Of a stretch of 64,000 bases of DNA, positions 6,701 through 59,046 are shown piece by piece. Source of the DNA: Chrysoperla carnea. Taxonomy: Eukaryota; Arthropoda; Insecta; Neuroptera; Chrysopidae. Under the pieces are notes generated by a model. The model saw only the letters and a list, made by a program, of their open reading frames with translations. It made no database searches and was not told where the DNA came from. The stretch is from assembly GCF_905475395.1 (NCBI RefSeq), contig NC_058337.1, positions 62,950,368 to 63,014,367 of the forward strand, read 5' to 3'. A program made the translations under genes and the position numbers. How positions within the stretch are numbered: position 1 is the stretch's first letter; each line of letters begins with the position of its first letter.

Positions 6701-8285
6701 ATTAAAAAAATGTTTTATAATATAATGCCTTTGAGTCATTTTGAAAATAAATATATTTTATTATAATTTTTTAAAGTTATCAATCAAAACATTATCGGTT
6801 ATGTATTTCAACAACCAATCGTTCAACATAAAATGTAAACACTGAAGGTCGTAAACATTTGTAATCATGTTATTTATGATAATTATCTTGAACTTTTTAC
6901 AACTCTTACATTGAAAAATGCTTTATGAGCTTTATTTTTACAAATATTAGACCAAACTCTATGTTACTGTTTACTGATTAATTTACGTTCAATATTGATA
7001 AAATCAAGGCAAATGTTGACAACTATTTTTGTAATAATATTAATTGCTGCAAATTCTGAAACTAGATATTTATTATATTTTATTCTTACGATCCTTTATA
7101 ACTTTCGGTAAAGTTGTGATGACAGGGTAATAGGTATTACAAATAATAAACAAAATTTTCAATTTCTTAAAATCTTACGAAAATTTTCTTGCATACTGAA
7201 CTTAAGTTTCCTTGATCGCCTTGATATGTTTCCTTGGTATATGCTCAATTCTGACCACAAGGCCTCATTTTCGCAATTGGAAGAAATATTTATTAACAAT
7301 TTCTGAACCCGAAATTTCTTATTATTGTAGATTTCTCAAAAATATATTGTTTTTTTTTTTTTTTTTAATTTTAAACCTCTTACGAAATTGTATACCGTAT
7401 CCAAATTAAAAATATGGATCGAATTTTTACATGTGTTATGATTAACTTAGGTGTACAAATTTTATGACCTAGCTGCTTTAACCAATAGCAAAATTGTTTT
7501 GGAATCTAGGAATTTTTATACCGTAATGATTCATTGAAAACACGTCATCGAGTTTTTGGATGGCAAACATTATCTTTATACTACGTAAATAGAGTTAATA
7601 TTGTATTAGGTATTGCGATAAGCCTGAAATTCAGGAGCTGATAAATGAAATTATCAGCGGAAAGGTGATAAAACACATATATGGTATCACAATGTGCACT
7701 ATAGCCTAAGTTTGTCCTTTGTGGACAGCCAATATAACCTAACCTAACCTAGATATTGCAAATGATCAAAAATTGTCCTTCTTGAAAAATCCTAAAATGC
7801 TTGTATTTAAAAATAATATTATTGGTAAAGGGTTAATATATTCCTGACCTGACTATATTTTTATTGTTTTCAATATTTTATCTCAAATTTAATTAATTGC
7901 CATTATCATAATAATTTATTGCTTTTTCATATCGTTCGAAAGGAAACACTAATATCGTTTAGATAAAATGTCAATTTGATAATGTTCGATTAATGTTATT
8001 ATATTTATTAAATTAGTGAAATTAATTATACTTAACAATAGTGGACGTGTTCAGCAGAAAACTTGTGTTGTAAAAAGGCGGTTACATTTTTGAGCGTTTG
8101 AAATTTTTGTACACCCATTCATTATTTTACCACAGAAAAAATATACATATAGCTTCAGAGACAAGATCTGGAATTTTGCGGGCAGAATTTATTTTGCATT
8201 GTTGAAACGTATAATTCCAAAATTTAAATTAGAAATCTTATTAAATTACATTCTAAACTAATATTTTTTTTATATTTTGTTTTAG
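720..8285. other. intergenic, AT-rich, repeat fragments
   Basis: No gene supported. Contents seen: a GT microsatellite with a conserved-looking flank (1215-1310), a short fragment of repeat family A (about 4540-4640, after an unexplained minus-strand open frame at 4219-4434), and three TTAGG-type units in CCTAA orientation (7736-7752). The remainder is AT-rich sequence with many stops in all frames. An upstream non-coding or coding exon of the SIAH-like gene may lie in the right-hand part, but I could not identify it. Confidence 0.5.
1238..1277. repeat. GT/CTGT microsatellite
   Basis: A run of GT dinucleotides passes into CTGT units. It is followed by a G/C-richer stretch (about 1275-1310) with a CGTCGTAGCGCC core, and preceded by GTTATAAGTTTGACC. 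The non-simple flanks suggest the microsatellite is internal to an old dispersed repeat; a second, diverged GTTATAAGTTTAAAG start occurs at about 1663. Confidence 0.6.
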
Positions 8286-8317
8286 ATGAAACATCGATTG
8301 ATAGAGAGTCACCAATT

Positions 8318-10918
8318 ATGGACAACAACAATACTCTTAGCGATTTAAATGATAACAATGGAACAATATACAAATCACAAACAAAAATAGATTCAGATTA
8401 TTGTAATTGTTACAATTGTAAAATATTATTTAATGAGTATGCAGAATGTGCTATTTGTACCGAACCATTGCAATCATCCACCGCAGTAATTTCACACAAT
8501 GAAGGGGGTGGTATAAGTGAATGTAATTCATGTGGTAACATATGCTGTTATCAATGTTCACAAAAATTAACAAAATGTGCCTTTTGTCGTCAACCATACA
8601 TACACAATTCATTTCCAATGTTCTTAAATGATCGTATACGAAGTTTGGCATTCGAACGTTTATTAGCTAAAATCAAATTACCATGTCGTAATGCAAGGTA
8701 AATATTTTTATTTTTAATTAATTTATATTAATATTAGTATCAGCTCCGAGAATACACATCCGGTTTTTAAACGAATTTTCTGCTATATATCCGGATTTGC
8801 AATATACAAATAAATGAATTTCATATTACCACAGTCTTTTAATAAAACTGCTTATTCAATGAAAATACAAACCTTAGGAGTAGAATCCAAACAAAAATAG
8901 CCACCTCCAAAATAGTCGAAAAAAAATTTGGAAAACCTTGATTATAAAAAGTTTCTAAAATGTGCATAATATGAAAAAATATCTTATGAAAAGTTTTGTA
9001 TTATCCATAGTCGAGTAAAATACGATTCAAGAGTTTTTTTTTGCGTGTATTAACTTATACTTTTGTCTTAAAGTTTTTACTGAAATTGGAATGCAGGAAT
9101 TAAATATATAACCAAGTAATGCAAAAACGCTTCTTTCTTTTGAATAAAAATTTTTCATGGAGAAAAATCGCACGTTTAATTTACACTCACTGGCACAGTA
9201 ATTTGTTCAGATAAAATGATCAAAAAAATTGCCGTTTTCGGATTTTGCCAAAAAAAACTCGGAAATAATAGACCGAAAAAATTTCTGTAATAGTGTCTCA
9301 TTTTTGAACATAAGGGCTAAAAACTTCAGAATCCAACCAACTCCTCTATCATCGACAAACTCAACCCAACTAACTCGTAATTACAACAATACTCCGGGGC
9401 CAAAATATTTTCGGTCTTTTTTTCCGATTACCACCATTGAGTAAGGAAGACCAAGGCTTCGAATCTAACGAATATTTGTTTGATCGAATTAAGGGAAGAT
9501 GAACATTCATATTCGATTGTTTCTGTGATTTTTTTTTCTTTCGATTGTACAAAACTTATTTCTAGTTTTTTTCGTTTTTGTTGTCTTACTTAAAATATTA
9601 AAAAAAATCATCAAAATTCTAATAAAATAATAATTTATCTTTTTCACAGACTCAATTGAAATAGAATCCACTTAGAATATCACTATCGATCGATTGGGAA
9701 GTAAAAAAAAAAATAATACAACCATTATGATTGCATTGTTACTTAAGTATCTAATTGCACCTAACAATGTTAACTAAAGTTCAATTTTTGTTCAATAATG
9801 CTTAATGATTGGGGGATAAAAAAAACTCTTTTTTGCATTGCTATTTTGTATTTTTCGGAAGGTAAAAAGCGAGAATAAGTGTTGCAATGAATATGAATAG
9901 TGTGCAAACTCAACGGTACGAGATTCATAAATTTCATGAGTTGTGAACACCAATACCTTGTTAAATAAATATAGATCCAACTAATACGAGAATCCGATTT
10001 TATTAAAAATAATACTCGCTTCTTCGCTAATTTGGTGCCAAAATTTCATCAATTTAACAAATTAACTAAATTTGATAACATACTTTTGGAGACTAAAAGT
10101 CAAGAGAATAATTACGATTGGGTAATTCGTAATAATGATTTCTTTTCAATCAAAATACGTATTTATATTACAAAATATTGGCAAGGATTTGAAATTTTTT
10201 CAAATATTTACTTTGAGTATACATACAATTTTGTATAGGTAGTGTCTACAAAAACATAACTGCAATACGTAGACTCGTAGAATAGCTTCACCTAGGATAT
10301 ATTCCAAACATTTTTCAAAATTATTGAGGTAATATGTTTGTTAATTTCAGGTATGGCTGCAAAGAATACTTAACATTAGACGTACGTTTAGAGCATGAAA
10401 TCAATTGTCCATATTCGCCACTTGGTTGTCCCTACTGCAGTTGGCAAGGTGAAGGTACAAACATTATCCAACATTTACGTGATACACATAAAATTTCAGT
10501 AGTGCCAGCAAATGGTATTGATATGGAAATTAATGATTTTCGTGCCAAATTAAAAGCTGCAAATGATAAATGTCGCCGATATTGTATATCATTATTGTGC
10601 CACGGTAACATATATGTGTGTAAAGTAAACATGCATAAGAATAAATTAAAATTATGTTTTCATCAAATCGATGGTAATTTTTTCAATAATTTTCAACATA
10701 ATAGTGGTGATAATCGTAAATTTGCAGCTTGGATTGAAATTAGTAGTGCATATAAAACGTTAAAAGGTATACTACCGATATTAAAAAGTAAACATTCAAT
10801 TATGAAACAATTAGAAATACCATGTGATTCATTGTTTGCTCATACGAATAATTGTAATAAAAAAATTGATAATAATTTAATACGAATTTCAATTACCATA
10901 CGACAATTTCTTGTGTAA
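8318..10918 (+). CDS. SIAH/sina-like RING E3 ubiquitin ligase, divergent (2 exons)
   Basis: Exons 8318-8697 and 10351-10918 (GT-AG intron, codon R127 split) give 315 residues. SIAH-type ligases bind E2 through the RING and substrates or partners through a C-terminal TRAF-like domain, acting in the cytosol as dimers. Seen here: C44-x2-C47, then C69, C72, C76, C77-x2-C80-x6-C87-x2-C90 with the SIAH-like QKLTKC segment; then two SIAH-type fingers, C123-x6-C130-x11-H142-x3-C146 and C153-x2-C156-x11-H168-x4-H173. The rest (174-315) fits a shortened, diverged SINA domain. The RING has no histidine at the canonical position. The frame stays open upstream of the ATG to an acceptor-like TTTTAG at 8280-8285, so a further N-terminal exon is possible. 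Many insects have sina paralogues; this is not canonical sina. Ligase activity is inferred. Confidence 0.8.
8698..10350 (+). other. intron of SIAH-like gene
   Basis: Starts GTAAAT and ends TTAATTTCAG; splicing restores a codon split 2+1. Open frames inside (for example 9229-9444 and 10032-10238) lack recognisable protein features and are AT-rich. I see no structured element in it. Confidence 0.8.
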
Positions 10919-15986: not shown

Positions 15987-18900
15987 ATGTCAACCATGGA
16001 CGAAAAATCCATCACTGCTTTAGTGCACGATTACCTTTTAAAAATAGATAAAAATTTATCAACTGTTTTTCAAAAGAAAACAAACGCGGTAAGAAATTTT
16101 TCCAATTTTTGTTTTTAACCCCACGTGCGTAAACAATTTTGTTGATTTGTAATTAAAATGTACCCCACGTGGGACTTATCCGCGTGTTTGTGAAAATTGT
16201 AATTAATGAGTTTTATTGTATTTTTTTTATAGCCAATATTACCAAAAGGTTCGCCCACAATTAAAGATGTTATATCACATTATCAAAAAACAGCAAAAAA
16301 GAAAATTCCAGAATTAAAAGCGACCAAGGATGAACAATCTAGCAGTGAGGAAACAAGCAGTGAATCTGAAGATGATACACCAGCAAACAAAAAACTGGTA
16401 AATGGAACTAAACAAATAGCTAATGGTCTGCCAGCAAAAAAACCGGCTATTTCACAAAAGAAAGAAGAAAGTTCTTCGGAGGATTCTAGTAGTGAAGACG
16501 AACAACCAGCACAGGTATATTCAGTTTTAATTTAAAGTTTCATAAACGATTTTTATTTGTTTATTGTATTACAATATTTTAAGTTGAATTATTCAACTTA
16601 ACCTAAATATGTTAATTTAACCAAATTTGTTTCTCAATATTTTATTGATTGAAATTCACTCACATTTCAATTGGGTATAAATAAAACAAATTTTTTAATC
16701 TTTTTTTTTTTTGCCAAGATTGTAATAAGGCTTTGTCTAATTTGGTTCATGTTAATTATTCATTTGAATAATTATTGAATTAATAATTTTGTCGTAATTA
16801 AGTTATAATTTTTTTAATTTAGAAAAAATCAGTGCAACCAGCTCCTAAATCACAACCTCCTAAACAAGCGCAAGCGAAAAAACAAGAATCAAGTAGCGAA
16901 GATTCCAGCAGTAGTGATGACGAAGAATCTAAAAAACCACAACAGATCGTTGCAAAACCTCAACCCGTCAAACCTGCAGTAAGTAAAAAGGCCGAATCAA
17001 GTAGTAGCGACGATGACAGTTCAGAAGAAGAAACTCCTCCTAAAGTAACTTCCACAGTTAATAAAGTAGCTCCACAAATTCAAAAGAAAGTTCAAGCCAA
17101 AAAAGATAGTTCATCGGAAGAATCCAGTTCCGATGAAGATGATGAACCTACAATTAAAAAACCTACAACAAAAGTTGTTCAAAAACCGACTGTAACTACC
17201 ACAAAGGCTGTTCCCAAAAAACAAAAATCTAGTAGCGAAGATTCTGAATCAGACAGTGACGAAGAACCACCAGCAAAAAAAGCAGCAACTGTTCCAACCA
17301 AAGCATCTGGTGCTAAACCTGCTCCACCAGCTAAAAAAGATTCAAGTTCAGATGATTCTGATTCTTCAGATGAAGAAGATGCCAAACCTGTCAAAAAAAC
17401 AGCACCCGCACCAGCTAAACAAACACCAGTCAAGAAGGAAGAATCTTCGTCTGATGATTCATCAAGTGAAGAAGAATCCCCAGTAAAATTACCTGCAAAA
17501 TTAACAGCTTCAACGCCTGTTGTTAAAAAACCAGCAGCCACACCATCAAAAAAACAAGAAAGCTCTTCTGATGACGATTCTTCAAGTGATGAAGATGAAA
17601 AACCACAACCTAAAGCAACACCAGCAAAAGCTACTCCAGCTAAGAAGCCAGCTACCAAAGAAGAAAGTTCTTCAGACGATTCTTCTAGCGATGAAGAAGA
17701 GCAACCTAAAAAAGCGGCTCCTGCACCCGTGAAAGCATCAGCAGCAAAGAAAAAAGAATCATCGAGTAGCGAGGATAGTTCTGACGATGAAGAAGAGTCT
17801 AAACCTGCTTCTGCCCCACCAACACCTAAAGGTGGACAAAAAAGGAAATTTGATGATGATTCCAACAACGCCGAACCTCAGTCGAAGAAACCAGCTTATA
17901 GTAATTTTGTTAAAGCAAATGATAGTTTCAATTTGAATGATACAAATAAGGTAAGCAATGAAAATAATTTATTTAACGAATTTTTAGCAAAAATAAATTG
18001 GAAGATTTATTTTCCTACTTTCTGTCAATTCATAAATTTTAACGCGATACTTTGATATTACACTGAAAATGCATTGAAAACCTTCCTTTTTTATTATTTT
18101 ATAAAATTCTCCGTCATAATTTTTGAAAGTAGTAAGACATAATAAATAGCGTATTCGGTTTGTGTTGTACCGATGAACATTGTCCTGGAATGTAAATCAT
18201 CCCTGAAAAAACATCATGCTCATGTCATTTATAAAAATTATCAGATTTGAAAAGAAAAAAACATGCAAGTTTATTTTTCCATTAATTATACCATGTATAT
18301 ATGAAATATATCATAGTATATTACTTTTAGTTCCAAGTTTGTAACGCTCAAAAATATTGATGCTACGAGCAAAATTTTGGTATAGGTGTACATAAAATCA
18401 CGGAATTAGTCCATTTTTGGTTGTCTGCATGTCAACACGATAACTCAAACACGAAAAATGATATCAAGCTGAAATTTTTACAGCGTGCTTAGGATATAAA
18501 AAGTGAGGCCGAGTTAATAAATTAGCAACATAGGTGGTCAATTGCGTCTTGGGTCCGTAGGATCCATCTTGTAAACCCTTAGAGCTAGAACGAAAGTTTA
18601 AATGTAAAAAATGTTCCTTGTATAAAAATAAATAACTTTTGTTTGAAACATTTTTTTTGCAAACATAACTGTTTACCCACGAGGGCGCAAATTTATTCAT
18701 CTGCAAATTTTATAGTATGTATTATAGGGGAATGTCAGTTACATGTGTGTGGGTATCTTTTTTACTTAAGAGACGCCAAAAAACTAACGATAGCGTAATC
18801 AACACTGTCTATACATGGTATTTCAACAATTAAGTCAGTCAATGGTTTGTTTTCACTTGTTTTTAAATAATTTCTGTATAATTTTTACTGTATTGTACAG

Positions 18901-21212
18901 AATGCACATGTTAAATTTAGTTCTTTTTCCTTACTAACTTACCTGCAAGTAATTTATCTTATTTTAGATAAATCGGTACGATCAAAATAAAAACTTTAAA
19001 GATTACAAATATATTATAAACTAACAATAAAATATTGCTCGTACAAAAGTCCACTAAAATAATAAAAAACCAACTAAATTTCTATAGAAACTTAATTTGC
19101 TTACACCGTTGTCATGTTAAATAGTTCAGTGTCATCGTGAGTATTCAGAAACTTTGATTTTCTTAATTATGAGTGTTCGGAAACCTTCGGTTAAAATACA
19201 AAAAATTATACTCTAAAAAAAAGGAAGGAATCTGGTTTCATCAAAAAAAGAAATGGTCTGTTCATGAGTAAATTTTATTTTTAATAAAAGGATAACTTAC
19301 AATTTCATAAAATGACGGTTTCAAAAGGAAACAAATTTTCTGCTAAATTTTAATGCATATCCAATACCTATTAGTTCAAAATTTCAAATGTTTGTTACTC
19401 TTTAAAATTCAAATGTAGATTTAAGCATAAGTTTAAATTAAATATATTTGGTGTTCAAAAATAAGAGAAATATTGACTCAATTATTTTCAATGAAAAAGA
19501 TCACAATAACTCATAACCTCGTTAAATTATAGTATAGTACGTATTCTTTTAGTTGAAATAAAGTAAAATTAAATTGTCTAATTATACCGTGTATATTTGT
19601 AATATATATTAAGATATAGTAAGTTAAGTTCCAAGTTTGCAACGCCTAAAAATATTGATGTTACGAACAAAATTTTTTGTATAGGCGTTCATAAAATCAC
19701 CTAATTAGTCCATTTCTGGTTGTCCGTCTTTCATCTCGATAACTCAAAAACGATACGATACGAGATATCAAGCTGAAATTTTTATAGCGTTCTTAGGATG
19801 TAACAAGGTTCTTATCTTATAAACCGTTAGAGATAGAACAAAAGTTCCGTTAGAGTTAATAAAAGTTCCTTATAAAAAATTAAAAAATTTCGTTTGAAAC
19901 ATTTTTTCTTAAACGTTACTGTTAATCCGCGAGGGCGCAAATTCGGACAAAACTTTCGTGTTCATTTTCTCCAAAATTATTAAAGACAGCTAGTTGAAAA
20001 TTTGCAGGTAGCTTCAACTAGTGGTCTTGTAAAACATTCTTAAAAAACGAAGAAAAGTTCTAGAAAATGCTTTCGAATCTTCGAAAACAAATAAATGGCG
20101 ACCGGAAGGCCTCCATAATTTTGTTGGTATTCTAAGCTCTTCTACCATAAAAAAAATAATACAAGCACTGATATTCAACATTTTCTATACAGGGTATTTC
20201 AACTATAAATTCAGTCAATTATTTGTTTTATTTTGTTTTTTAAACAAGAATTTCAAGATATTTTTTTCCAATATTGTTTATTAATTATTTATAGCCAAAA
20301 AATACACCATTCAGACGTGTTCGAGACGAAGAAATTGAAATTGACCCACGTGTTAGAGATAATTCATTTGAAGCAAAGGTAACGATTGAACCTCAATGAA
20401 ATAAAAGGAAAATAGGCAATGCCCTCAACACAAATTATGCTTTTTTCAACGACTTTTTGTTGTTGAGGTTTAATTGTTACTTGAATTATAAGTTGTTTAC
20501 ATTGTTTATTTTGTGAGTTGAACTAATTGTCTATTTTTCTTTTGTTTCATATCTAGAGTGAAGGTGATGATGGTTTCAAACAAAAACCTTGGCAAAATAA
20601 AAATCGAGAGGGAGGAGGTGGAGGACGAGGAGGTGGATTTGGTGGACGTGGGGGATTTAATAGAGATCGTGAAGGTGGTGGAAGGGGAGGGTTCCGTGGT
20701 GGTCGAGGCGGAGGAGGCCGAGGTGGAGGCGGGCGCGGAGGGGGTGGTCGAGGTGGTGGAGGTGGTGATAGACGAAGTTTTGGTGGTCGCGATAATAATC
20801 GAGGGGGTGGTGGTGGAAGGGGTGGGGGTTTTGTTAAAGATAGAAACAGTTTTGGAGGATTTAATAATTCATCGAGTAATTCCGGTCCACCTCAAAACAA
20901 AAAAATTACATTTGATTAGTTGAAATAAAGGTAACTAATCTAAGTAGTTATTGATCTACCTCTCGATCTTTGTGAATGGTGTGTGCATGTGTGAGAGAGA
21001 ATAGTTAATAATGTATTTAAAATTACACATTTCAAAATTTTTTTTTATTATTTTAGAGAAACGCTAGAGGATCGTGGGGTGAACGAGCTAACCTTGATTT
21101 AAAACATACTCGTGGCAAATCGTTTCGTCATGAAAAGACAAAAAAGAAACGCGGTTCTTATCGTGGTGGAACTATTGACATGAGCGTTAATTCAATTAAA
21201 TTTGAAGACTAA
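15987..21212 (+). CDS. Nopp140: Nopp140 (NOLC1), nucleolar snoRNP/Cajal-body phosphoprotein
   Basis: Exons 15987-16088, 16233-16514, 16823-17950, 20295-20378, then alternatively 20557-20919 or 21057-21212. All introns are GT-AG and every coding junction is phase 0. Nopp140 chaperones box C/D and H/ACA snoRNPs between nucleolus and Cajal bodies and is heavily phosphorylated by CK2. Seen: residues 1-34 form a LisH-type N-terminus (LVHDYLLKI); 35-504 hold about eleven acidic clusters of Ser/Glu/Asp ([10 protein letters not shown] type, CK2-like) alternating with Lys/Pro/Ala linkers; 505-532 begin the conserved C-terminal segment ([19 protein letters not shown]). With the last exon the protein is 583 residues ending in the SRP40 signature ([17 protein letters not shown]); with the RGG exon it is 652. 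This matches the Nopp140-True and Nopp140-RGG forms of Drosophila. Confidence 0.95.
16122..16171. promoter_or_regulatory. pair of CACGTG E-boxes in Nopp140 intron 1
   Basis: CACGTG occurs at 16122-16127 and 16166-16171, both inside a shared CCCCACGTG 9-mer, 135 and 179 bases downstream of the start codon. In Drosophila, Myc/Max sites of this form just downstream of the transcription start mark ribosome-biogenesis genes. Two perfect copies 44 bases apart are unexpected in such AT-rich DNA. Binding is inferred. Confidence 0.45.
18281..18868 (+). repeat. dispersed repeat family A, copy 1 (long)
   Basis: Begins ATTATACCATGTATAT and ends around CTGTCTATACATGGTATTTC plus GTCAGTCAATGGTTTGTTTTC. Internal markers: AAAAATATTGATGCTACGA, ATCAAGCTGAAATTTTTACA, TGTTTACCCACGAGGGCGCA. 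The same markers recur in order at 19577-20246, inverted at 36402-36822, and as the right-hand part only at 57640-57860. No coding potential; probably a non-autonomous transposon. Confidence 0.7.
19577..20246 (+). repeat. dispersed repeat family A, copy 2 (long)
   Basis: Same order of markers as the copy at 18281: ATTATACCGTGTATAT start, AAAAATATTGATGTTACGA, ATCAAGCTGAAATTTTTATA, CGCGAGGGCGCAAATTCG, and an end with TACAGGGTATTTCAAC. The middle-right part differs, containing an extra stretch (about 19945-20180) also seen inverted at 36480-36600. Confidence 0.7.
20557..20919 (+). CDS. Nopp140: Nopp140 alternative last exon: RGG/GAR tail (Nopp140-RGG form)
   Basis: Spliced after the acceptor TCATATCTAG in phase 0, this exon encodes 120 residues: an acidic lead ([13 protein letters not shown]), then a glycine/arginine domain with many RGG and GRGGG units and interspersed Phe (FGGRGGF), ending NKKITFD and stop. 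GAR domains bind RNA and are arginine-methylated in nucleolar proteins such as fibrillarin and nucleolin. The reading frame is fixed by the upstream exon; the overlapping open frame one base later (20558-20923) is a shadow. A donor-like AAAG|GTAACT follows 11 bases after the stop, so the exon may be either terminal or an included cassette. Confidence 0.9.
   Translation, partial: SEGDDGFKQKPWQNKNREGGGGGRGGGFGGRGGFNRDREGGGRGGFRGGRGGGGRGGGGRGGGGRGGGGGDRRSFGGRDNNRGGGGGRGGGFVKDRNSFGGFNNSSSNSGPPQNKKITFD
20924..20929 (+). terminator. AATAAA between the RGG-exon stop and its donor site
   Basis: AATAAA lies five bases after the TAG stop and overlaps the AAAG|GTAACT donor region. Cleavage here would make the RGG exon a true terminal exon; splicing here would carry the conserved exon as 3' UTR. 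Sequence alone does not decide. Confidence 0.35.
21057..21212 (+). CDS. Nopp140: Nopp140 conserved C-terminal exon (Nopp140-True form)
   Basis: Phase-0 exon after TTATTTTAG, 51 residues and a TAA stop. It carries the SRP40/NOLC1 C-terminal signature: WGERAN, then [19 protein letters not shown] and a closing VNSIKFED. It joins directly to the exon ending DNSFEAK, reproducing the uninterrupted conserved domain of vertebrate and yeast relatives. This domain is the most conserved part of the family. Confidence 0.93.
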
Positions 21213-24128
21213 AATATAAGTTTTAGATTAGTTCTGTAATTTAGCACAAATAATCTTATTTTTTTTGATCTAACGACCAATTATTTTTTAAACTATTGTA
21301 GTCTGTAATTTATTTTCAAAAACAAATGTTAATTTTGTTTTTCTTTTTTTGAGTCCTACTTATTGATTATATTAAGTCGTCAAAAGGTGGTTAAGTATGT
21401 AATTCATTCGGATTTAAAACTGTTCTCCACCTGTTATAAGAATACTTGATTCATTAGTAAGACTGATGGATTTACAAGTGCTATAATTTTCGATTAAGCG
21501 AAAATTTTTACAATTCCGATAATTACTTACATTCGAGGTAAATAAGTCCGGCAGCACTTGTAAGTTCATCACTTTAAAATTTTGCGACAACAGATGTAGA
21601 ACAGTTTTGAAAATACAATAAATGTAAATGAAAACGGTAATGAAAAAGTCCTCTGAAAGATGAACTTTTAATACAATTTTGTAAAGTATTTACTTGTAAT
21701 TTTATATATCTGATAATTAAAAAATATATATTACTGATTATAAGAAATTCTGTGTATATTATTGCCATAAGTAAAGCGCTGTATATTTTGTGTTAAGAAA
21801 TTCAAAAATATATTACTGAAAATTTGAAATGAAGCCGTGTTTTTTGTTACATTTAATTTTATTTTACTTCATTAATTTACTTTGTTTATAAAAATGTACG
21901 AAATTTTAATAAGTACAAAATCTCAAATTGTAGAATTTATAAATTTAACTTATTAATATGTTATTCTTTTGCAACGCATGTTAATATTTTATTTCGGTGA
22001 GTGTAAATTTTAAGTCCTCACAATATTCGGAACTTAGGTTCCCACTATTGACTGCCGTTTCAATGAGTTTTTGGAACGTAGTTCCTTAACGCGGCTTGCC
22101 ATGGTGAGCAAACTGACAAAAACCGTCACGTAAGAAAATTAGATATACGTTGTGTGTGTGTGCCATACCCATGGTAACCACGATATGTTATCCTAGTTTG
22201 TATTATTTTTATTTATTATAGTACACGAATTTTGCATTTTTGTACTATTTATATCCAAAACTAGTTATGGATACATATGCATAACTAGTAACTTCGTTCC
22301 TAACGGGGGTTCCACAACCGCAATCTGTTTTTTTTATTAGAAGCTTGTTTAATGAAATCTGATCATTTGAAGGTAGATCATAAGCTCTTTACCTAATTAA
22401 AAAAAACCTGATGATAATGTGGAAATACAGGAAAGATTAAATACATCAACTTATATATTGGTAAGAATTAAAATATAATGTTCAACGGAAAATATTAAAT
22501 TTTAATCAAAGATTATATTTTGTAACCGAAAGAATCAGTCGCAACTTCAATTTTTGAAAAAATTGGATTAATATCATCTTTAGTTTACACTCTCGATGGT
22601 ATTTAACAGAATATTGAGAAAAAAAAAATTGAGTTACGACTTTCCTATCGGCTAAAGGCTTTAATTTTGGTTTTAAACGTCAAAGGTTTTTTAAATTTTG
22701 TAGATTTAACTTGTTTTAATGGATTCGAATTTGAGAAAATATTCTTTTCTTTGTTTTTTTATAATGAGAATTTTATAAAATAAATTTTCTAATTCGATGA
22801 AATTAAATTCTGTAAAATTTTTCTCGTTTATTACAGGTAATATAAATGTATAGGATTACTAATAAAAATAAGTGATATATAAATAACATTTTTGATAGGC
22901 ATGAAATTTTATAATATTTTTAAAAATCCTCCTAATATTTTCATAGGTAGAACAAATTTTTATAAATAAATGCGGTTTTCCAGATAAGAAGGATTCAAGT
23001 TACAATTGAATTTTAATCACTGCGATTATACCCTTCACTCTATCGATTTGAAATTTGGGTATGTTATAGGTATTCGTATTCTACATGTGTACTATGTGTA
23101 CTATTATTTTTCGAAAATCCTGTTAATTTTCCTAATTTTCATTGTTCAAATCCAGAGGTACAGTGGAATAAGAAAAAGTACCTGGGTGTGAACAATGAAA
23201 ATTGGGAAAATTAGCACGAATTTTTTGTTTCTGGATATACCAATACGTCGTAAAGGAGACTTCATATTTTCTATGTCGTTCGTCTCTTTGAAATCTGTAT
23301 ATCCATTATCCAATAAGCAAATATGTATAAAATTTATATTTATTATTGCATTAATAAACTACAATAGATACACTCTAGTAGCAAATAACTTTAGGCAGAA
23401 TACATAATTATAGGAGTGTTGGCGCGATGTGAAATGGATCTAAATGTATAATTGACCCTAGTTGGCGGGAATAATTTTTTTTTTCTTATCAAATATATTA
23501 ATATTAAGAAATGCATTATCTAATAGTTCCAAAAACTAATTAAAACATTAGAAAAATTTTATAATTACTTGAATATTTTATAATAGTTGAAAACGATAAG
23601 CGACAATAACAAAATTTTATTTGATAAAACAAAACAAACGAATCCATCGCATCGACTCAGTAATTAAAGTTAACATTACAGGTGAATGAAACAAGTACTT
23701 AATTAAATATAAAAGTTATGAGGTAGTCATGTATGACACAGAACTGTTGTAAACTGAAATACATTGATTCACATTCAACAAGTTAGCAGTCATCATCATC
23801 ACATCCATACCTGATTGGAGATGGCATTAGCCTTGAAAATTTGAAGAAAATGTTTATTAGTTCTTCAGTTAAGATTTGTATTGAATGAAGTTAAGAACAA
23901 AATACAAAAAAAGAAGAATACATTATAGTCAAAGGCAACAAATGATAACATCCCATTGTTGAAACTATTTTTAACAAAAAATAATGACCATAAAATATTT
24001 TTTTAAATTTCAGTAAATATAGTGAACTTTAAAAATGCAAAATACAAGTGTTTTTAGTTTAGTATAAAAATCATTACAAAATTAATTAATTTATTATTAA
24101 ATTTTAAGAAAAACTTTAATTTTTTACA
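21213..24128. other. Nopp140 3' region and intergenic spacer
   Basis: The Nopp140 3' UTR should occupy the first few hundred bases; a candidate AATAAA lies near 21615-21620. A short palindrome built on AACTAGTTATG and CATAACTAGT is at about 22259-22291, next to CTTAACGCGGCTTGCC (about 22085), whose near-complement recurs at about 29830, so these are probably remnants of one element family. TATAAAAG at 23709-23716 could serve the Spätzle-like gene, but such strings are common here. Confidence 0.45.
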
Positions 24129-37765: not shown

Positions 37766-40700
37766 ATGATGTACACGGTAGGTGCCTTAAATTTTTCTTT
37801 AAATTTTCATAATTAGTAATATAAAGTGGACAGTAAACCATAAGAAATTTTGCTCTATTGCTTAGGGAATTTGTATTGTGACCATTTTTGAACTAATTAT
37901 GGGATCGTTAAATTTAAATTGACTGAAATTAGACAAATTTGTATTTGTAATTTAACCTTCTATTTCGAAATATATTTTATTCTTAACCTTGCTATCTTTG
38001 TACTATCACTAAAGGGCTTACTGTAAAATGAATGCATATTAGAAATATTATGTTTAGAATTTATTAGTTAAAATAGGCCCAAATTTTTTTCTCCATTTTA
38101 CAAGCTTAAAAAATTCCCAACTAATTTTGATTTTTTTAAATTTAAAAGTAGGGTACCTTTGATTTGAAAACAGTTGATTTAAGGGGGTATTTTTCTTTGA
38201 CATTCGAATGATTTTAATGTATAAGTTGAAACTTCCTATTTTGTTACAGGGTACTACAGCAGAGCAAGATAATCGCTTCAGCGATAAAGAAAAAAAGTTA
38301 CTAAAACAATTGAAATTCGGAGACTGTCTCAGTCAACGAGTGAGTACTGAAATATTGTTTTTAAAGAGTTAAATAATTTTCATTTAAATTTAATTACAGG
38401 TGGATATGACAAAAGTGAAATTGGATGTTATTAAACCTTGGATTATGGATAAAATTACAGAAATTCTACATATTGAAGATGATGTTATAGTTGAATTTGT
38501 ATATAATCAATTGGAAGAAAAAGTAAATATTAATTTATTATATTTTTTTAAACAAAAGTATGCTTCAGTTTAATTTCACATGAAAAATTTGTGACAAAAA
38601 TTTATGTGAAATTTTTTGTCACAAATCGTACTAGTGAGGAAAGAACAGTGTATATTCCAAACCCTAATTGAAGGAATTCAAATCATTTTCTCCTGATTAA
38701 TTTTGATTATTTTTTTTATTCCTCAATAACTATGTTTAAGGTTAAAAGTAAATATTATTTTCAGTACCCAGACCCAAAGAAAATGCAGATTAATTTAACT
38801 GGATTTTTAAATGGTCGTAATGCACGCGCTTTCATGACAGATTTATGGGCGTTATTACTATCAGCTCAAGAGAGTCCAACAGGAATACCTGAATCACTTC
38901 TACAAAAGAAAAAAGATGAGATTAAGAAGAGAATGGTAAATTTAATTGGTTTGTGTGTACAAAAATTTGTTTATATAATGCTATTGCTATTTTATAGGAA
39001 GAGCAAGAGAAGATTAACGAAATGGTGACGAAAAGAGAACGTGAGGAGAGTCGTGGAAGATCCGGTACAAGAGAGAGTGATGGCGGCCGGGGAGATGCGG
39101 ATAAACGGAGTAGTGGTGTTCGGGACCGAAGTGAATCTCGTAGGCGCTCACGTTCAAGAGATCGAAATAATCGTTCTAGAAAAGATAAACGTTCTAGGAG
39201 CAGGTATGTTTTTTTTATCAATTTTTATTTTTGTATAACTATCTTCAAAAATCTTTTGATAGGTCTCATTCTAAATCTGATATTAAACGTGAGAAAAGTC
39301 GTTCACCCAGTCGTGTGTCAAATGATAAAGAAGTAAAAGGGAATGGTACAGCAGCAGAGAGTCCTAACCGAACGGCGGATGAAAATGATAAAGATGGTAG
39401 TCTTCCGCCTAGTAATAATACCGACGATGCAACAAAAGTCAAAGATGAACCTTCAACGAATAATGCAAATTCAAATTCACAAACATCAAATTCTGGGCCT
39501 AAACCTAATGTGTAAGTTTAAAATGCAAGTTAATTTAAATTCGAGTTTAATTGCAAATTAATAAATTAATTTTATTTTTCAGTGAAGCTGTTCAAGCTAT
39601 TTCTCGATTACAGGCAAAACTACTCGCAATGGTTGGAAGCAAGAAGTCATCGCGGAATTCTCGTTCAAGATCAAAGTCACGCTCACCTAGACGACGATCA
39701 CATTCAACTTCAAAATCAAAAAATACTCGAAGAAGTCATTCTAGGTCACCAAAAAGGCGTAAAAGTCGTAGTCCATCAAGATCGAAACGCACAGCACGTA
39801 GTAGAACTCGTTCGAGGTCGAAATCACATAAACGCCGCCATTCAAGATCGCTATCAGAGTCTCCAAAACGTTCAACAATTAGAAGGCGCAGTCGTTCTAA
39901 ATCACCTATACGAAAACCGACTAGTAGATCTCATTCAAAATCACAACCTTCTCGGAATAATCCAATAAGTAAACCGCGCAGGAAATCTAGATCGGCATCA
40001 AATACCAGCTCTGGAAGTGACAGCACCGCGGCACGTAATTCAGCGTCGCCCGAAAAACGGCATACAAAAGCAGTAAGCAAATCAAAGTCAAGGGAAAAGT
40101 CAATTACCAAATCTAAAGATGATAAAGAAATTGTAAAGACTAAAGATAGGGCCAGATCAAGCTCATCTAGTGCTTCTGATTCTGATAAAGGTAGTAATTT
40201 CAAGTTTTTAAAAGTTTTGTATTTTAACAAAAATAAAACAAATTTTTAATTTTCAGGAAAAGGGAAAGAAGATTTTTCTATACAGAAAAAAGAAAACAGT
40301 ATACAAAAGAAACGCCATTATCGATCAAATAAAGAGTCTTCTGAGAGTAATGCCAGTGACAGTGAACATGAAAGTTCTAATAAAAATAAATTTAATAGAG
40401 ATCGAGGTGATAAACGTCGGGATATAGACAAAAAATCACCAATTCGAGCACGCAGTCGATCACGTGATAATAGACCTAGGCGTGGAAACAGTCGTGACAG
40501 AGGAGGCGGTGGATTAAGACGTAACAGTAGATCACGAAGAAGTCTATCAGTAAGTAATTCATTTTCAAATCTTATTTTTAACTATTAAGGTAGTTTTAGA
40601 AATATTTAATAGACATTTCTTTATTTATTTATCTTTTGGCGACGTCTTGTGCCATTTCTTAATATATTATTTAACCGCCCGGCCATTAGAATAAAGACCT

Positions 40701-43700
40701 TTTACATTGAAAATTTGAAAACCGGAAAAATTTGCTAAGTTTATATCTCATTTTAGAGGTACGTGAAATTTTTTTTAACGTTTTTAATAATGTAATTATT
40801 AACAGATTTCAATTGATTTTATAACTTTCTCTAATTTCTTGATTCATAATGTTACCAACGATCCTTAACGCAAGGATTTTTCTCCTTCGTATTCACTTAA
40901 TCATTTGTTTTGAAGTATACTATGCTTAGCAACAACATATTTTGATGATCCAATTTACAAAACGACCCATTTTAAAATAGCTTATTATCTTCATCAAATC
41001 ATTATTCAGAGGTGAGGGGTAAAAAACAGGCAGCGCTCTTCTGACTTCACTTCAAGGGCGTCACAGGTGCGCTAGAGTGCTCGCCTCTGGTACATTGGAT
41101 AGCAAAAAAATAAAAATTATTTTTGTAAAATGTAAAAATTTTTAAAATTAAAAAAAATTCAAATTCAAAGGATTCACCAAGGTTAAAAATGACACGGAAT
41201 CACAAAAAATTTACTTGTTGGTCTAAGCATCCATGACAAAAAAAGCTTAAAGCTTAAAAAATGGAAGCCTGTCTAGTAAAAAACCTTTTTTCGCTGACAG
41301 ATTTAAAAAACGAAGTCCATGATAATAAAAAACATTTTTTCGTTGACAGTCCAAATTTTTTGCATAAAATAAATAAAACCTTCTTTTAGAAAAAAAATTA
41401 AAGTAATGTTTTGACATGTGCGTTTTTCAAAAAAAAAAACGTCTGTTTTGTTGGCACAAAAATTTGTCTGTCAGCGAAAAAATGTTTTTGACTATGACAG
41501 ACTTCATTTTTTGAGCTTCGTTTTCTCTACATTCAAAATGGGAAAGTCTGCGATATTAGTTAAAAAAAATTTTCAGCTAGACAAGTTGTAACAAAATTTA
41601 AACTGCATTTGCAAAATAAAAAATAATAAAGATGTTATGAAGTGCAATTTTAATAAAAAAATAATTTAAAGATCTGTCAGAAGTTAATTAACAAAAATTG
41701 TCAGCCAGAAAATTTTTTCAAAAATAATGCATTATTTACTACAACAAGTTGTATAAATTTCAAGCAGATGTTTTGGAAAAAATCAAAAAATTATAAAAAA
41801 CAATTTTTTAGTAGCCTGGCGGGCGTAACATGATTTTCAACCATTTTCACTTTATAATTTTGAGGGGTGCCTTTTTTATCTATAAAGCTATATCTTTTTT
41901 CTATGTTTTCCGTATAAAATATGTTACTATCAAAATTTTGTCTAATGAATGTTTTTTAATTTTTTATTATTTTCTTTAGAGAAATAAAAATCGAGGTCGA
42001 CGCAGTTTAAGCCGAAGGCGTAGAAGTACTAGCCGCAGAAAAAGATCTCGAACACGTAGTCCTATTAGAAGTGCACGCAGACGCACACGTAGTCGAAGCT
42101 TAAGCCGTCGAAGGTAGGTTATCCGTTTGTTATATTTTTATTTTGCATGAATTATTTATAAATTAATTCATATTCCAGTCCAACATATTAAAATTTAAGT
42201 ATTTGAGTAATTTATTAGGATATCAACAAAGCGATTCAACTTTGTTGCTATATAAATTTATGTTTAATATGTATTTGAAGATATTTTAAATTAATTTAGT
42301 GAGAATATTTCATAAAATATTATCTAATTTTATAGACGACGTAGTCCAAGCTACCGTCGTCGCAATTCACGCAGAAGATCCGTATCACGCAATCGTCGAC
42401 GTGATAGATCACGATCACGGATTCGTCATCGAGCTACGTCACGTGATCGTGGACGTAATTCACGATCACCAAGACGTTCACGGTCACGCAGACGCAGTAC
42501 ATCACGTACGAATAGAAGAAATTCACGTGATCGTAGATTGAGCAGTCGAGATAGAGATCGTAAGACGGCTATGGATCAAAAAGATCGACAACCGAAAATA
42601 GATACTAAACGTCAACTCTCTGGATCATCGATATCAAGAACTACAATTGTACGACGAAAGTCGCGTACTAAATCATTATCGAAATCACGTTCAAAATCAT
42701 TACCAAAAGAGAACACTACCACAGAAATTGAAAATAAATTCGATAAAGCAGAGGAAAATAAAAAGCGGCGAGATATAGTTGGCGATCGTGGCTCTAAAAA
42801 TGTCACCAATATTAGTTCTGAAAAGAAAATTGAAGACGAACCCCTTGTTAAAAGAGATGTTAAACAGCATCTTGAAAAAAATAAACGTTCAAAATCGAGG
42901 AGTGTAAGTCCAGAGAAAAAGAAAACGGTACTAAATGTCCAAAATGCAGTACCAAAAGCTAGATGGTCTAAAAGTCTTAGCCGTACACCTAGTCCATTCT
43001 TAAAACCACATGAACGGTCACAAACAGATTCTAAAGTAGCTGTTAAAAAAGTTGAAACGAATGTTACAGGTATGACTAAAAAAGATTTAGAAGATATAGC
43101 GGCGAAACGAAAAACTAAAATAGCAATTGAAAAAGAGTTGCTTAAATCTCAGAAAGTGACTACAAATACGTCTACGAGTAGTAACAAAAAAGCTCAGTCC
43201 ACTGTTACCGAATCTAAGAAACATTCAAAGAAGGCAAGTGATGAATCGAATGATAGCGCTTCGGAAAGTTCTGATTCAGAAGAAGAAAAGAGACATAAAA
43301 AGAAAAGTTCGTCTAAAAAACGGTCTTCTAAAAAGCGCGCTACAAGAGATTCATCGGCCTCAAGTGACAGTGAAACTGAAGTAGTAACCAAACATAAGAA
43401 GAAAAGTAGACAAAGTTCAGGCTCTGAAAGCGATGAAGCGTCTAAAAAACGACAACCCCCTAAAAAGGTATCACGCAGCTCTGATGTTAAATCATCTAGC
43501 TCAAAGAAAAAAACTGATGATTCACAACATACTGATTCAAAAGACACTAAAAAGCGCAATGCTTCACCTAGTAGTTCACCTGACCGTAGGAAGAAAAAGG
43601 TTGTGAAAGATGATTCTTCAGACAGTGAAACTGAATTAAAAAAGAAAAAGTCATCTAAAAAATCACGGGGAAGTTCCGATGTTGAAGTCGAAAAAACAAA

Positions 43701-44046
43701 GAAAAAGAAAAATGATTCATCGTCAAATGATTCCGAAGAAGATAGTGTTAAAACAAAACGTAAACGTAAGAAGCATAAGGAGAAGGCATCGGCTTCCGGT
43801 TCCGATAATGATGAACCCGAAGTAAAGAAAAAGAAAAAGGAAAAAAAGCATAAAAAGCATAAGAAACATTCGAAAAAACATAAGAAACACAGAAAGAAAA
43901 AGGAAGAGAAGAATAACAGTAGTGATAATAGCGATGCAGCTGAAGAAACTGACAAAGATACAAATTTAAATGAAGACGAGCGTAAGCTACGCGAGAAAGC
44001 GTTAAAAAGTATGAAACGACAAACAAGCAGTGACCATTCAGATTGA
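37766..44046 (+). CDS. SRRM1: SRRM1/SRm160 splicing coactivator (PWI + RS domain, 10 exons)
   Basis: Exons 37766-37777, 38250-38339, 38400-38522, 38765-38935, 38998-39203, 39263-39511, 39583-40190, 40257-40549, 41980-42113 and 42336-44046; all GT-AG, in frame, 1198 residues. SRm160 is a nuclear-matrix and exon-junction-associated SR coactivator that binds pre-mRNA through its PWI domain and also stimulates 3'-end processing. Seen: start MMYTGTTAEQDNRFSDKEKK; PWI domain about 25-132 with VIKPWI, FVYNQLEEK and INLTGFLNGRNA; then long Arg/Ser dipeptide tracts, an acidic-Ser/Lys region, a poly-Lys/His stretch (KKHKKHKKHSKKHKKH) and the family's C-terminus LREKALKSMKRQ. The first exon encodes only four residues; its phase and the conserved following GTTA-EQD-RFS support it. 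The complete frame and length (human about 900 residues) indicate a functional gene. Confidence 0.94.
38587..38626. repeat. small inverted repeat in SRRM1 intron 3
   Basis: ATTTGTGACAAAAA and TTTTTGTCACAAAT are 14-base inverted copies around a 12-base loop, between exons 3 and 4. It would form a hairpin in the pre-mRNA. No known family. Confidence 0.6.
41225..41525. repeat. inverted repeat in SRRM1 intron 9
   Basis: TTTTTTCGCTGACAG and CATTTTTTCGTTGACAG on the left face CTGTCAGCGAAAAAATG and AAGTCTGTC-complement blocks on the right, forming arms of roughly 60 bases with about 75-80% complementarity by eye. CTGACAG/CTGTCAG motifs recur through 41285-41720. The intron (40550-41979) is the longest in the gene and otherwise AT-rich. 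Confidence 0.5.
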
Positions 44047-58716: not shown

Positions 58717-59046
58717 TATACCATGTGTGTTTGTACCATCTAGGCATATACATATCTGTAGTATGACAGAATACATCCGTTTATAGTAATGCATCTAAGC
58801 GAGAGGTATTATATACATGTGCTGTAAGACTACAGATACGATACGACAGATCTTCTGTTGTATGCAGTGATTATTGATGAACTTACTAGTTATCTGTAAC
58901 TAAAAGACTCCCACTCTCCAAGCGTCTTCCAACTAATGTTCAATACATGTATATAATACCTCTCGCTTAGATGCATTACTAAACGGATGTATTCTGTCAT
59001 ACTACAGATATGCATATGCCTAGATGGTACAAACACACATGGTATA
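58717..59046. mobile_element. MITE-like element with long terminal inverted repeats
   Basis: Left arm 58717-58821 and right arm 58944-59046 are nearly perfect inverted copies, from TATACCATGTGTGTTTGTAC inwards to CGAGAGGTATTATATACATG; I count only a few differences, including a small indel. The 122-base centre is single copy. The outermost TATA at both sides could include a TA target duplication. No open frame. Confidence 0.85.

Follow-up and report, generated by a model that had tools for sequence, protein, structure and literature searches.

Nopp140 of Drosophila melanogaster occurs in two forms, Nopp140-True and Nopp140-RGG, which are identical to residue 584 and differ by alternative splicing (PMC12192640; this and the three other articles cited below are represented by excerpts of their text). 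The fly RGG tail closely resembles the tail of nucleolin, a protein of which flies have no close counterpart (PMC12192640). Here we describe the Nopp140 gene of the lacewing Chrysoperla carnea in a window of 64,000 nucleotides, which is the whole stretch of DNA analysed (assembly GCF_905475395.1, contig NC_058337.1, positions 62,950,368 to 63,014,367); positions below are those of the window, and its features lie on the + strand unless another strand is named. The exons of this gene indicate that it probably makes two proteins with 532 common residues, the tail alone differing, which would be either the conserved SRP40 tail (True, 51 residues) or a glycine/arginine-rich tail (Gly/Arg or RGG, 120 residues). 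A two-tailed arrangement is already known in Drosophila; the lacewing is a further member, which apparently splits at another point and has a candidate RNA switch. Outside Drosophila, no report of a two-tailed Nopp140 was found in ranked literature listings, whose coverage leaves out most subscription papers.

As in Drosophila, a single Nopp140 gene can end in an SRP40-like or in a Gly/Arg-rich tail, judging in the lacewing by splice sites and frames read from the sequence alone. The earlier note on this DNA had proposed that the lacewing can probably make its two forms in the way the fly does. The two-tail parallel stands, while sameness of the route is unproven, the fly split lying seemingly one exon earlier. 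Fly Nopp140 exon 2 is 1650 bp long, that is 550 codons (PMC7197718), and its length is polymorphic, going by the title of a work cited in PMC12192640. Since 584 - 550 leaves 34 codons, and exon 1 of the lacewing gene has 34, this arithmetic on published text would place the fly split directly after the large repeat exon, and suggests that the fly isoforms part one exon earlier than those of the lacewing. Apparently unlike that of Drosophila, the shared part of the lacewing protein extends through one more exon before the split, and this exon encodes 28 residues of the SRP40_C domain. An earlier split in the fly would also agree with the lengths of the unique tails that a 2002 paper reportedly gave, about 103 residues for True and 137 for RGG. 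With vertebrate NOLC1/Nopp140 the lacewing protein shares a middle part of acidic-serine/lysine repeats and a conserved SRP40 tail. It is unlike the vertebrate protein in its Gly/Arg tail, the RGG form being stated in the excerpts of PMC12192640 to be lacking in vertebrates.

The Nopp140 gene and its two ends

The shared coding exons lie at 15987-16088, 16233-16514, 16823-17950 and 20295-20378. Exon 1 runs for 34 codons from an ATG at 15987 to a GT donor and encodes an N-terminus that looks LisH-like by eye. The acidic Ser/Lys repeats start in exon 2, and exon 3 is the principal acidic-serine/lysine repeat exon; the alternation of acidic-serine with basic repeats is plain in both. Exon 4, the final shared exon (84 nt, phase 0, flanked by the intron ends tttatag and gtaacg), encodes 28 residues that end in NSFEAK and form the first third of SRP40_C. 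All six introns, the alternative ones included, have GT-AG ends, and every coding join is in phase 0. The earlier note had set exon boundaries at 20378, 20557 and 21057 and a donor after 20930, and on re-reading the sequence these coordinates hold, together with their phases and frames. The Pfam scan returned no match for LisH and only a weak one, below cut-off, for Treacle (E 0.0037); the NCBIfam scan gave no match, and an Rfam scan of the window gave nothing at gathering score. Intron 3 holds a diverged repeat pair, at 18296-18693 and 19594-19943, with 71-85% identity over pieces.

Joining exon 4 (20295-20378) to the exon at 21057-21212, which encodes 51 residues, starting with RNARG, and a TAA and is directly preceded by atttttttttattattttag, gives a protein of 583 aa in which SRP40_C (PF05022) is complete, covering 76/76 model positions (Pfam, E 6e-32). 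Joining it instead to the exon at 20557-20919, directly preceded by ttcttttgtttcatatctag, gives a protein of 652 aa with a tail of 120 residues and a TAG. This second join leaves SRP40_C positions 1-36 only, at 21.8 bits, under the curated cut-off of 28.6. The gene had been called Nopp140 with two complete alternative C-termini before, and the domain match and the two open exons with their stops confirm it: a shared body can be followed by either of two tails that have valid splice sites and separate stops. Since the Gly/Arg exon brings a stop of its own, the tails are mutually exclusive whether that exon ends at its own AATAAA or is spliced into the 3′ untranslated region. We infer that both forms are produced. 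In the whole genome (559,487,470 bases in 337 contigs) SRP40_C has a single match (E 0.001). Relatives of the SRP40 tail were sought by one scan each of viral_contigs and of the prokaryote set genome_contigs, with 18 and 99 pattern matches and 0 confirmed; solved structures were sought for either tail and none was found.

The exon at 20557-20919 is probably in real coding use, as its composition and reading frame indicate. Gly and Arg make up 57% of the tail, which holds 10 RGG motifs. Among 20,000 first-order Markov simulations of the exon 0.37% were open in frame, and none attained 57% Gly+Arg. Its GC content is 50%, against 26-28% in the flanks, and among 240-base segments of the window's + strand, sampled in steps of 20 bases, the one richest in G lies in it. 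Tandem arrays within it are short and imperfect (seven rows, with 67-93% matches). One point weighs on the other side: another of the exon's forward frames is likewise open, so that openness by itself says little in a sequence rich in GGN. A genome search with the exon found only the exon itself (E 0.001); as the search is insensitive to Gly/Arg composition, a fibrillarin-like gene not having been returned, it excludes close copies only. The nucleolin-like tail is expected to bind RNA. It ends in a short basic/hydrophobic peptide, which we take to resemble the end of the glycine/arginine-rich tail of vertebrate nucleolin; unlike vertebrate nucleolin, the lacewing protein has no RRM domains joined to this tail.

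A computed intron fold over splice signals

The 178-base intron between exon 4 and the Gly/Arg exon (20379-20556) can form two long helices. Helix S1 pairs 20377-20399 with 20460-20482 in 23 uninterrupted bp, 5 of them G-U, and its 5′ arm, made of the last two exon bases and the first 21 intron bases, encloses the shared 5′ splice site. Helix S2 pairs 20396-20420 with 20526-20550 in 25 uninterrupted bp, 3 of them G-U, and its 3′ arm encloses the Gly/Arg polypyrimidine tract and reaches the edge of a putative branch point (CTAAT, 20523-20527, by eye). Because bases 20396-20399 are common to both and the helices cross, S1 and S2 cannot coexist as full helices. Among stems of at least 18 bp that span up to 260, they are the sole crossing pair on the two strands of the window, where the + strand has 16 such stems with three nested pairs, and the - strand 9 with one nested pair. 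In 4000 shuffles no 23-bp stem appeared and a length of 18 was reached in three.

The intron as a whole folds to -48.1 kcal/mol (z -5.7), and 0 of 3000 dinucleotide shuffles were as stable; for the longer segment 20360-20556 the z-score is -4.6, with 0 of 200 shuffles as stable. The antisense strand folds to -29.1 only. The other Nopp140 introns tested are less folded (z -0.5, -2.4 and 0.5; the ends of intron 3, 1.3 and 0.7), and the fold of the intron at 20931-21056 is ordinary (z 0.5; 0.1 for 20920-21070). Alone, S1 and S2 are similar in energy (-24.7 and -25.7), while the best whole fold reaches -49.4 with S2 versus -38.3 with S1. For RNA ending at 20482 or at 20500, computation gives an unpaired fraction of 0.06-0.09 for the 5′ splice site. 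In RNA to 20560 or beyond, this value is 0.51-0.62, the Gly/Arg polypyrimidine tract is at 0.08-0.09 and the True polypyrimidine tract at 0.57. At 20-25 C the values for RNA to 20500 and 20560 are almost unchanged. Computation thus finds mutually exclusive helices that lie over splice signals and are stabler than shuffled sequence. The whole fold analysis rests on the sequence of one species.

We tentatively propose, as a model, that the choice of tail is set by competition between the two helices. S1 would form once 20482 has been transcribed, hiding the shared 5′ splice site and delaying use of the donor. Once 20550 has been made, S2 would displace S1, freeing the donor and hiding the Gly/Arg polypyrimidine tract. 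The downstream SRP40 exon would thus presumably be the default tail, and an RNA-binding protein or helicase that opens S2 would lead to the Gly/Arg form.

Such control has precedents. In MAPT and SMN2 RNA structure masks a 5′ splice site, in F8 a polypyrimidine tract (PMC11802352), and competing pairings govern mutually exclusive exons (PMC6071210). Like these switches, as the excerpts of both articles describe them, the lacewing intron has exclusive pairings with splice signals inside a stem. Unlike them, it has the competing arms in one short intron, where they would mask the shared donor or the acceptor of the optional exon. It also differs from docking/selector systems, which use duplicated similar exons and selector sequences. 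Duplicated exons or a docking site are not seen here, the translations of the two alternative exons are dissimilar by eye, and both long helices lie in one intron.

We regard it as about an even prospect that the fold arose by chance or from a repeat and has no regulatory role. Several observations weigh against a switch. Among 426 windows of 178 nt (25 shuffles each), nine have z of -4 or lower, so that the strong fold is an event of about 2% relative to natural sequence and not of 1 in 3000, and further foldback elements occur in the window. The grid window 20401-20578 scores z -3.9, and the gap of 19 kcal/mol between sense and antisense belongs to the exact intron. Of 1276 grid windows, 9 show a gap at least as large; the Nopp140 repeat exon accounts for four of these and the Gly/Arg exon for two, and the two grid windows that cover most of the intron, starting at 20351 and 20401, are outside the nine. 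Because stems were sought on the sense strand and G-U pairs were accepted, the search favours G-U over A-C, and the G-U bias is partly built in. In the longest context at 20-25 C, finally, the 5′ splice site is mostly paired (0.27-0.44 unpaired), which would be a handicap to either form, and the value for the Gly/Arg tract goes up to 0.12-0.16. On the other side, a chance origin has to account for the coincidence of the arms with the two signals, 5′ splice site and polypyrimidine tract, when stems of at least 18 bp cover only 1.2% of the + strand. It also has to account for pairing that is strand-specific and for helices that cross, whereas the three other overlapping pairs of the + strand are nested. 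A repeat origin is opposed by the genome search, in which the 178 bases of the intron matched only themselves (E 0.01, very common words skipped).

A transposon origin of the folded intron is rejected as far as that search reaches: the self-match was the only one at E 0.01, and the arms of the intron follow the order A B A′ B′, which a foldback element does not have.

Strong folds are also present elsewhere in the window. The most strongly folded of the 426 windows of 178 bases, 23101-23278 (z -10.9, 25 shuffles), lies about 2 kb downstream of Nopp140 and contains a 28-bp stem at 23121-23216. At 58751-59012 there are near-perfect nested inverted repeats on both strands, with arms of 33 and 37-38 bp, a palindrome resembling a foldback element.

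Transcript end and origin of the Gly/Arg tail

The stop of the Gly/Arg exon (20917-20919) is followed by an AATAAA at 20924-20929, which stands beside the donor-like site 20930|GTAACT (GTAACT from 20931), and by a GT-rich stretch at 20970-20999. The earlier note allowed for splicing of the exon through the junction 20930|21057. The GT donor after 20930 is indeed there, while the AATAAA that overlaps or adjoins it competes with it, and the exon may be the last of its transcript. If the junction is used, the Gly/Arg stop lies only 11 bases upstream of it. By the usual 50-base rule, a stop so near a junction would not mark the transcript for decay.

An alternative terminal exon is a serious possibility, though we rate it somewhat short of probable. 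In that case the AATAAA would direct cleavage near 20945-20960 after the 20378|20557 splice. The tail would then depend on whether polyadenylation or splicing prevails, U1 at 20930 would counteract cleavage, and the intron fold would have a small role. The spacing is suitable: the AATAAA begins 5 bases past the stop, the GT-rich stretch follows about 40-70 bases further on, and the donor at 20930 adjoins the signal. The motif is, however, common in the AT-rich DNA here (also at 20400, at 20596 within the coding exon, and at 21617), and the acceptor at 21056 and the donor at 20930 are both good matches by eye.

One of these further AATAAA motifs bears on retention of the folded intron. A transcript that keeps this intron would continue from exon 4 through six codons (VTIEPQ) to an in-frame TGA at 20397-20399 and directly on to the AATAAA at 20400-20405, a possible third, truncated end of Nopp140.

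The Gly/Arg tail may conceivably have arisen independently in flies and lacewings and not in their common ancestor, although we lean away from this. Gly/Arg repeats evolve easily, and the fly split, apparently after exon 2 (34 + 550 = 584 codons), comes one shared exon before that of the lacewing. Against separate origins, the gene, the terminal position and the kind of tail are all the same, and loss of an intron in the fly together with a shift could account for the difference in split point. It is improbable that the lacewing Gly/Arg exon is a relic or seldom used, with almost all of the protein True: its acceptor is masked in the computed fold (polypyrimidine tract 0.08-0.09 unpaired), but a relic would be expected to decay, and the exon retains 120 open codons, an intact acceptor and stop, and a G-rich make-up amid AT-rich DNA.

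Nucleolin, other loci and biological meaning

The lacewing genome was searched for nucleolin in three ways. A Gly/Arg codon pattern occurred at 21 places, against 5 for a reversed control pattern; three of the 21 fall in the Nopp140 Gly/Arg exon and three in a single fibrillarin-like gene, of which one locus was read; among the others, seven loci were read and eight left unread. The RRM_1 search gave 139 matches among the 150 of 196 candidates that were scored; 15 regions of clustered RRMs, part of the total, were taken, and the longer frames were read in 14. A query with RRM1-4 of vertebrate nucleolin had 17 matches, of which the one with the best score showed 30% identity and none extended beyond about two of the four RRMs, and one more locus from this query was read; protein names were assigned by eye. 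In these partial searches nucleolin was not recognised among the Gly/Arg loci, clustered RRM regions and nucleolin-query matches read, those that were recognised being other proteins. The result agrees with the fly situation, with absence unproven.

Taken furthest, the last shared intron would be a bistable RNA switch through which the state of the nucleolus, perhaps via Gly/Arg proteins including Nopp140-RGG itself, sets the isoform ratio, with a Gly/Arg tail that dates to early Holometabola and a genome without a recognised nucleolin. In this full form the proposal is speculative and we consider it unlikely.

Further genes were seen in the window and beyond it. At 8228-10918, exons encoding a RING-like domain (below cut-off) and a Sina zinc finger (E 6e-11) belong to a SIAH-like gene. 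At 38672-44046, a PWI domain (E 5e-15) is followed by long Arg/Ser-rich frames, in a gene that by eye we name SRRM1/SRm160-like. Elsewhere in the genome, positions 138880000-138889900 of contig C1, about 1.1 Mb from the contig end, contain a frame without stops for a cytochrome oxidase subunit I of bacterial type (532 aa). The same locus also has an RDD-like protein, a 5-formyltetrahydrofolate cyclo-ligase-like fragment and a subunit II-like frame (names by eye). These bacterial-type genes adjoin a virus-like mobile-element polymerase gene (by eye), and the locus has the look of an assembly join or of an insertion of Rickettsiales type.

If the two lacewing forms are real, a two-tailed Nopp140 is no peculiarity of flies; it would be common to flies and lacewings, or would have been invented twice. 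Either origin bears on the source of a Gly/Arg nucleolar protein in insects that have no clear nucleolin. The ratio of the isoforms has consequences, since in flies over-expression of the RGG form, and not of True, induces R2 expression (PMC12192640). With the intron fold, if real, what is so far a splice variant known by description would become a system whose control point can be tested.

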